Source of the DNA: Pelagovum pacificum
GTDB taxonomy: Bacteria; Pseudomonadota; Alphaproteobacteria; Rhodobacterales; Rhodobacteraceae
DNA length: 64,000 bases
Direction: 5' to 3'
Assembly (NCBI RefSeq): GCF_016134045.1
Contig: NZ_CP065915.1
Location: 3,905,001 to 3,969,000, forward strand
Shown: piece after piece, positions 59,493-61,105 of the stretch
Layout: each line of letters starts with the position of its first letter
Numbering within the stretch: position 1 is the first letter of the stretch
The notes under the pieces: model-generated
Told to the model about the DNA's origin: nothing
Database searches by the model: none
The model's input: the letters and a program-made list of their open reading frames with translations, nothing else
Program-made: the position numbers and the translations under genes

Positions 59493-60855
<1,363 letters not shown>

Positions 60856-60887
60856 GACGTCGTCCTTTCTCGTCCCTCCATATAACG

Positions 60888-60919
60888 AAAAGGGCCGCTC
60901 CGGCGACGGAGCGACCCTT
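60888..60919 (-). terminator. Terminator upstream of arfB
   Basis: On the minus strand AAGGGTCGCTCC and GGAGCGGCCCTT form a 12-bp stem (one G-U pair) with a 6-nt loop, followed by TTTTCGTT. It ends the RNA described at 60888-61075, 33 nt before arfB. Confidence 0.8.
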
Positions 60920-60984
60920 CGAAAGTTCAGGAGGTGGGGTCGGTTAGGATCCCCAACTCAGGGGTTCAGTTCCCAAGGGCTGCC

Positions 60985-61041
60985 TCAGGAGCGGTCCTCC
61001 CAAGCTGTCCCGACACCTCTCTCCACCATCTTTCTAGACAC
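60985..61041 (-). CDS. 18-codon ORF with full-length Shine-Dalgarno
   Basis: GTG at 61041 follows AGGAGG by 7 nt inside a 15-17-nt match to the anti-Shine-Dalgarno tail. The peptide is MSRKMVERGVGTAWEDRS, ending TGA at 60985. An in-frame ATG at 61059 would add six residues (MKGGDP) encoded by the SD itself. The peptide may be a stalling leader peptide or merely incidental to an RNA function. Confidence 0.4.
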   Translation of the reverse strand: MSRKMVERGVGTAWEDRS

Positions 61042-61081
61042 TGGATCACCTCCTTTCATTGGTTTCGCCTGACTAGGAGGG

Positions 61082-61105
61082 TTACACAGAATTTGTGTAA
61101 GTCAA
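61082..61105 (-). promoter_or_regulatory. Promoter/operator candidate for the arfB-upstream RNA
   Basis: TTACACA (61082-61088) and TGTGTAA (61094-61100) are perfect 7-bp inverted repeats with a 5-nt spacer. On the minus strand TTGACT (61105-61100) overlaps one edge and resembles a -35 box; the -10 (TAACCC at 61084-61079) is poor. Confidence 0.45.

Follow-up and report, generated by a model that had tools for sequence, protein, structure and literature searches.

A conserved alphaproteobacterial small RNA with an extended 16S rRNA complement and an 18-codon reading frame as a candidate ribosome-gated mRNA

The small RNA CC2171, which reportedly originates from Landt et al. 2008, is the nearest catalogued relative of the RNA considered here, whose gene lies on the minus strand of the window, that is, of the whole 64-kb stretch of Pelagovum pacificum DNA that was analysed. 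No function of CC2171 is described in the literature searched, to which the original discovery paper did not belong, and the passages of PMC5596092 and PMC11701678 that name its Rfam family, RF01867, mention neither an open reading frame (ORF) nor an rRNA complement. Likewise, the same literature holds no report recognisable as the present RNA (an ORF or rRNA pairing set out in the CC2171 discovery paper could have escaped it), and the available text of PMC4117421, PMC5988900, PMC12559287, and PMC5082802 does not name it. The nearest proven analogue found, as far as the available portion of PMC12218461 describes it, is the duf1127-1 leader of S. meliloti, whose upstream ORF (uORF) was shown to sense translation. 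It resembles the window RNA in being alphaproteobacterial, in the internal pairing of a short ORF's ribosome-binding site, and in a state that reports translation, features that in the window RNA are partly predicted. However, in that leader the start of the uORF serves as the pairing partner, whereas in the window RNA the partner would be a 3′ mimic of 16S rRNA beside the terminator, and that portion of PMC12218461 relates that no intrinsic terminator was found, that Rho is suspected, and that control falls on a DUF1127 gene. Translated short ORFs also occur in two other small RNAs, Pos19 of R. sphaeroides and rnTrpL of S. meliloti, the former 219 nt long, RpoE-driven, and according to PMC5036791 restricted to R. 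sphaeroides strains, the latter leaderless (PMC10117765); the sections of both papers at hand describe no complement of the 16S tail. Long pairing between a Shine-Dalgarno sequence (SD) and 16S rRNA is likewise found in the extended SD motifs of S. aureus, which the accessible part of PMC13009471 presents as a general feature of initiation, whereas here it marks nearly always one RNA per genome.

In a 401-base search the window RNA matched the CC2171 model over 60891-61065 with 49.6 bits (E 1.6e-9), less than the gathering score of 75 bits, and judging by sequence we call it a distant relative of CC2171 and not a member. Three of the first 20 other loci pass the 75-bit cut-off, 18 of another 20 give sub-threshold matches with E no higher than 0.01, and L054 and L100 give no match at that E, all loci scored having been picked by a shared 5′ motif that itself adds to the score. 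Common to both RNAs are the 5′ block GAAAGGAGGUGAUCCAGUGUCU, a similar length, and a long-range helix in the same position, after GUGUCU and closing just before the terminator, and the window family too has a 3′ intrinsic terminator; the middles do not align, and Rfam, where CC2171 is entered as ‘caulobacter sRNA CC2171’, types it as an sRNA. The RNA, its ORF, and its terminator are widely conserved and not confined to close strains. A DNA search with the element matched 35 of 61 genomes, some of the distant ones by the SD block only. At up to two mismatches the motif occurs in 117 of 149 Rhodobacteraceae genomes (reversed-pattern control, two), once per genome save for one genome with a second, weaker match. 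At up to one mismatch it occurs in 73 of 385 Alphaproteobacteria genomes (control, none) and, across the phylum, in 71 of 398 genomes (control, one), all 71 among the 135 Alphaproteobacteria and none among the 263 genomes of other classes. Related RNAs in other Alphaproteobacteria have different neighbour genes. The comparisons that follow use 119 Rhodobacteraceae loci, which cover part of the family's motif matches and remained from 127 after removal of L029, L030, and L038 (motif absent at two mismatches) and of duplicates; a 118-locus set that omits L221, where no terminator was found; and 86 loci of other families, after removal of L054, L106, L130, and L131 (no terminator found), of loci with fewer than 250 nt remaining, and of duplicates.

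The small RNA gene can be placed at 61071-60887 of the minus strand, its 5′ end from a promoter-like block and its 3′ end from a terminator, between a Vut_1 (PF02592) transporter gene recognised by domain match (61755-61123, minus strand), which lies upstream on the same strand at 112 of the 119 Rhodobacteraceae loci, and arfB, which encodes an RF-1 domain protein (PF00472; 60855-60436, minus strand). The putative own promoter comprises a −35-like TTGACT at 61105-61100, a 16-nt spacer, and a −10-like AACCCT at 61083-61078, found from the logo and by direct reading and preceded by TGT at 61086-61084; from this block transcription would start at about 61071. TTGACA with at most one mismatch is present upstream at 87 of 117 loci and absent at 30, and 79 of the 87 boxes sit 46-62 nt 5′ of the SD; alignment on those 79 brings out a conserved xAxxxT hexamer after TGn, an extended −10. 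A generic promoter scan returned no site in the window region around TTGACT and AACCCT. The intrinsic terminator, 60919-60888, ends 33 nt ahead of the arfB ATG at 60855. Given that a generic scan found one terminator-like site in 2 kb and 1.3 in shuffled sequence, the single site is not significant; its conservation is, a terminator being found in 118 of 119 Rhodobacteraceae loci and in 16 of 119 shuffled stretches. Read at the level of sequence, the locus is more than a leader of arfB: a conserved RNA gene that has promoter-like and terminator sequences of its own.

The plus strand at 61041-61057 reads CTGGATCACCTCCTTTC, the sole match in the window at up to three mismatches, and the minus strand, 61057-61041, reads GAAAGGAGGTGATCCAG, an extended SD complementary to the 16S tail of three relatives; the perfect 17-nt complement claimed in the original prediction is thus borne out. 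The reference tail comes from a search of 13 genomes, three of which (two from the window's genus) yielded a 16S gene, each ending ...GCGGCTGGATCACCTCCTTTCTAAGGATG; a search of the source genome's assembly did not recover its 16S gene. Shuffled sequence gives a mean of 0.20 matches to the 17-mer at up to three mismatches, so that an exact match is much rarer, and the source genome holds one exact copy and one with two mismatches. The predicted duplex of SD and 16S tail reaches −34.6 kcal/mol, as against −12.5 for a generic SD. At L009, L010, L178, and L199 the SD region reads GGTGCTTCAG in place of GGTGATCCAG, which shortens the rRNA complement; these loci retain the SD core, the 18-codon ORF, and the terminator all the same.

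An ORF of 18 codons, GTG to TGA (61041-60985, with the TGA at 60987-60985), follows and would encode VSRKMVERGVGTAWEDRS; direct reading of the sequence agrees with the original prediction on this frame, on the 3′ mimic, and on the distance from terminator to arfB. The ORF has exactly 18 codons at 109 of the 119 distinct Rhodobacteraceae loci, which were picked without regard to ORF length, and the stop codon over all 119 is TGA in 59, TAG in 44, and TAA in 16. Because a fixed length with interchanging stops is hard to explain otherwise, the ORF is likely translated. An in-frame ATG at 61059 precedes the SD in the window, and since this triplet is ATG in just 13 of 119 loci the NTG 3′ of the SD is the likelier start. 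Four Rhodobacteraceae loci (L179, L181, L185, and L225) have divergent, ATG-started ORFs of 25-31 codons like those of other families; at three of these loci a Vut_1 match is absent as well.

The helix termed P1 pairs codons 3-5 with the segment just 5′ of the terminator, in the window GAAAG of codons 3-4 (61034-61030) with CUUUC directly before the terminator (60925-60921), and its support comes from covariation. Among the 86 loci of other families a locus's own segments pair at −8.11 kcal/mol and swapped ones at −4.98, with none of 2000 permutations as good. Wide segments failed the same comparison in Rhodobacteraceae (self −5.75, swapped −5.85), presumably owing to the readiness of the C-rich mimic to pair with almost any partner; segments narrowed after that failure gave 11.25 versus 10.70, with 0 of 5000 permutations. 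In this family AGAAAG goes with CTTTC in 33 of 38 cases and AGAGAA with TTCTC in 12 of 15. The permutation tests, for P1 as for the GUCGG and ACAG pairings below, take no account of relatedness among loci. In a tree-aware covariation test on 108 loci (18-codon and shorter than 230 nt only) the P1 column pair ranked first (E 0.02), paired in 108 of 108; the second-ranked pair (E 0.05) shares one P1 column and is no base pair (paired in 20 of 108), and the third (E 0.27) lies in the terminator.

Nested folding predicts P1, with at least three pairs, in 4 of 118 Rhodobacteraceae loci and 43 of 86 elsewhere, the crossing helix of SD and mimic winning in the former; in the window CUUUC then goes partly to the SD's own AAAGG. 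That competing helix would join the SD core to CACCUCC at 60936-60930 (60936-60929 reads CACCTCCT), a predicted mask of the SD. The pairing has a predicted probability above 0.5 in 106 of 118 Rhodobacteraceae loci, 0.99 in the window, which upholds, as a prediction within this family, the pairing of SD and 3′ anti-SD first proposed; it exceeds 0.5 in none of the 86 loci of other families and is a Rhodobacteraceae trait. The commonest mimics, CACCTCC (39), CATCTCC (31), and CGCCTCC (24), can each pair with GGAGGUG. A partner for all seven bases of GGAGGTG stands within the 30 nt directly 5′ of the terminator at 103 of 118 loci (88 of 96 with arfB, 15 of 22 without), and four rearranged control heptamers find one at 6, 27, 59, and 100 of 118, the last, GAGGTGG, being near the SD register and overlapping the mimic. 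Two-sided covariation between SD and mimic is not demonstrable, since the SD is nearly invariant and served as the search motif. Given that P1 and the SD:mimic helix cross, they would form either a pseudoknot or two alternative states. The mimic as a trait of the whole class was tried and rejected (other families, 14.0 for the core SD and 13.0 in shuffles).

Further pairings were weighed on 108 18-codon loci. GUCGG inside the ORF (61014-61010) and the segment before the mimic, CCGAC at 60943-60939 in the window, pair better than swapped partners, as do ACAG and a middle segment (0 of 3000 permutations each). A hairpin with a CAGC tetraloop (60990-60971) carries the stop codon in its 5′ arm. 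Hairpins with a CA[AG]C loop occur in 63 of 118 Rhodobacteraceae loci against 2.0 expected, with the stop codon inside, and in 19 of 86 loci of other families against 1.7 expected, there mostly within the ORF. Of two control loops, AC[AG]N is also raised in Rhodobacteraceae (33, 8.2 expected) and GA[AG]N is not (7, 13.3 expected); both are at expectation in other families (5 versus 5.6 and 8 versus 7.6). A start-codon hairpin was rejected for its tiny effect (self −7.38, swapped −7.29, 2 of 3000), and CUGGAUC inside Rhizobiales-type ORFs is a weak trend at most.

The reading preferred here, to which we give about an even chance, is a small mRNA gated by ribosomes, its single SD being contested by 16S rRNA and a built-in mimic of it. 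Transcribed from its own promoter and closed by its own terminator, a structured RNA of some 180 nt would double as a tiny mRNA, and its 17-nt 16S complement near the 5′ end would drive translation of the 18-codon ORF. Once the 3′ part has been made, the CACCUCC mimic is predicted to be able to close the SD, and codons 3-4 could base-pair with the stretch preceding the terminator. The fold would open when a 30S subunit captures the SD, a competition that the unusual length of the rRNA complement may allow it to win, and ribosome supply or initiation would so gate the RNA. The output would most likely be the RNA or the peptide, independent of arfB, with read-through into arfB as a possible extra in Rhodobacteraceae. 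A bolder form, which we hold only tentatively and consider doubtful as a whole, is a riboswitch-like RNA, old in Alphaproteobacteria, with the ribosome as ligand: the 16S tail would vie with the RNA's internal copy of it for the SD in Rhodobacteraceae, and the entering ribosome would have to terminate at a fixed codon within a conserved CARC-loop hairpin, the RNA thereby reporting both free 30S subunits and termination. The present comparison gives the catalogued sRNA family CC2171 a far wider range and a probable reading frame, adds a covarying helix, and points to the ribosome as a plausible ligand. If the gating is real, many Alphaproteobacteria possess an RNA, nearly single-copy, that gauges their translation capacity.

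That the RNA is instead the 5′ part of the arfB transcript, with translation or ribosome supply setting read-through of the terminator, is unlikely, although much in Rhodobacteraceae invites it. ArfB lies close downstream on the same strand at 96 of 119 loci, and in 94 of those 96 it starts 12-242 nt past the terminator, often too near for a promoter of its own, which makes read-through expression plausible; from the arrangement, read-through into arfB is possible. In six more genomes (G002, G781, G802, G807, G809, and G856) arfB follows on that strand at a distance of about 1.5-3.5 kb, and the S. meliloti uORF, as the available portion of PMC12218461 presents it, is a precedent for a translation sensor. 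However, 23 of the 119 loci show no arfB in the stretch examined (22 of these 23 genomes carry it farther off), and the 22 such loci with a terminator keep the 18-codon ORF in 18 cases and the full mimic in 15. At the 86 loci of other families the stretch examined, roughly 0.3-1.5 kb long, shows no arfB downstream on the strand of the RNA, and at two, L118 and L119, the gene stands upstream on the opposite strand; the RNA is therefore not linked to arfB wherever it is present. An antiterminator in which GCCCUU after the stop would pair with AAGGGC of the terminator looks conserved and was rejected for want of covariation, 4706 of 5000 permutations being at least as good. Of the ribosome-sensing leader or rRNA-binding RNA first proposed, then, the conserved RNA with its very long SD, predicted mask, ORF, and terminator stands, whereas the purpose of tuning arfB fits poorly with an RNA that is mostly intact where arfB does not adjoin.

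Rather more improbable is an ordinary tiny mRNA whose product is the peptide and whose strong SD serves just for high expression. The fixed ORF length with interchanging stops would suit it, as would L048, L111, and L112, outside Rhodobacteraceae, whose ORFs of 55-56 codons follow a 16S-complementary SD and begin like signal peptides; a leader of this kind may serve there to express a small exported protein. Against it, codons 13-18 are highly variable though the length is constant, and several conserved codons are near-invariant even at free positions: among the 109 18-codon ORFs, codon 6 is TTG in 92 of 96 Leu, codon 7 GAG in 106 of 106 Glu, and codon 12 ACA in 101 of 103 Thr. Given this variability and the conservation at the nucleotide level, the position of the ribosome seems more important than the peptide. 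The encoded peptides are moreover unlike between families, whereas long-range RNA pairing is conserved.

An RNA acting in trans, whether by holding 30S subunits or by blocking other mRNAs with a freed 3′ anti-SD, is very unlikely: the long 16S complement and its duplex energy would favour capture, and CACCUCC could become free once the SD is occupied, but conservation of the ORF length suggests a role for elongation and termination in addition to capture, and the predictions for other families show no such 3′ mimic. A chance match or a relic of a 16S gene, which the 17 identical nucleotides might suggest, is next to impossible, as the flanks are unlike the 16S ends of the three genomes and the element is conserved across genera with its ORF, helices, and terminator.

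Two smaller features of the loci may be recorded. In the window an inverted repeat, TTACACA-AATTC-TGTGTAA (61100-61082), overlaps the promoter spacer and the start of the −10 and might serve as an operator; its TGTG half alone is well conserved in the family logo. Genome G048 has two copies of the motif, L098 and L099, and the two differ in their ORFs and P1 segments.
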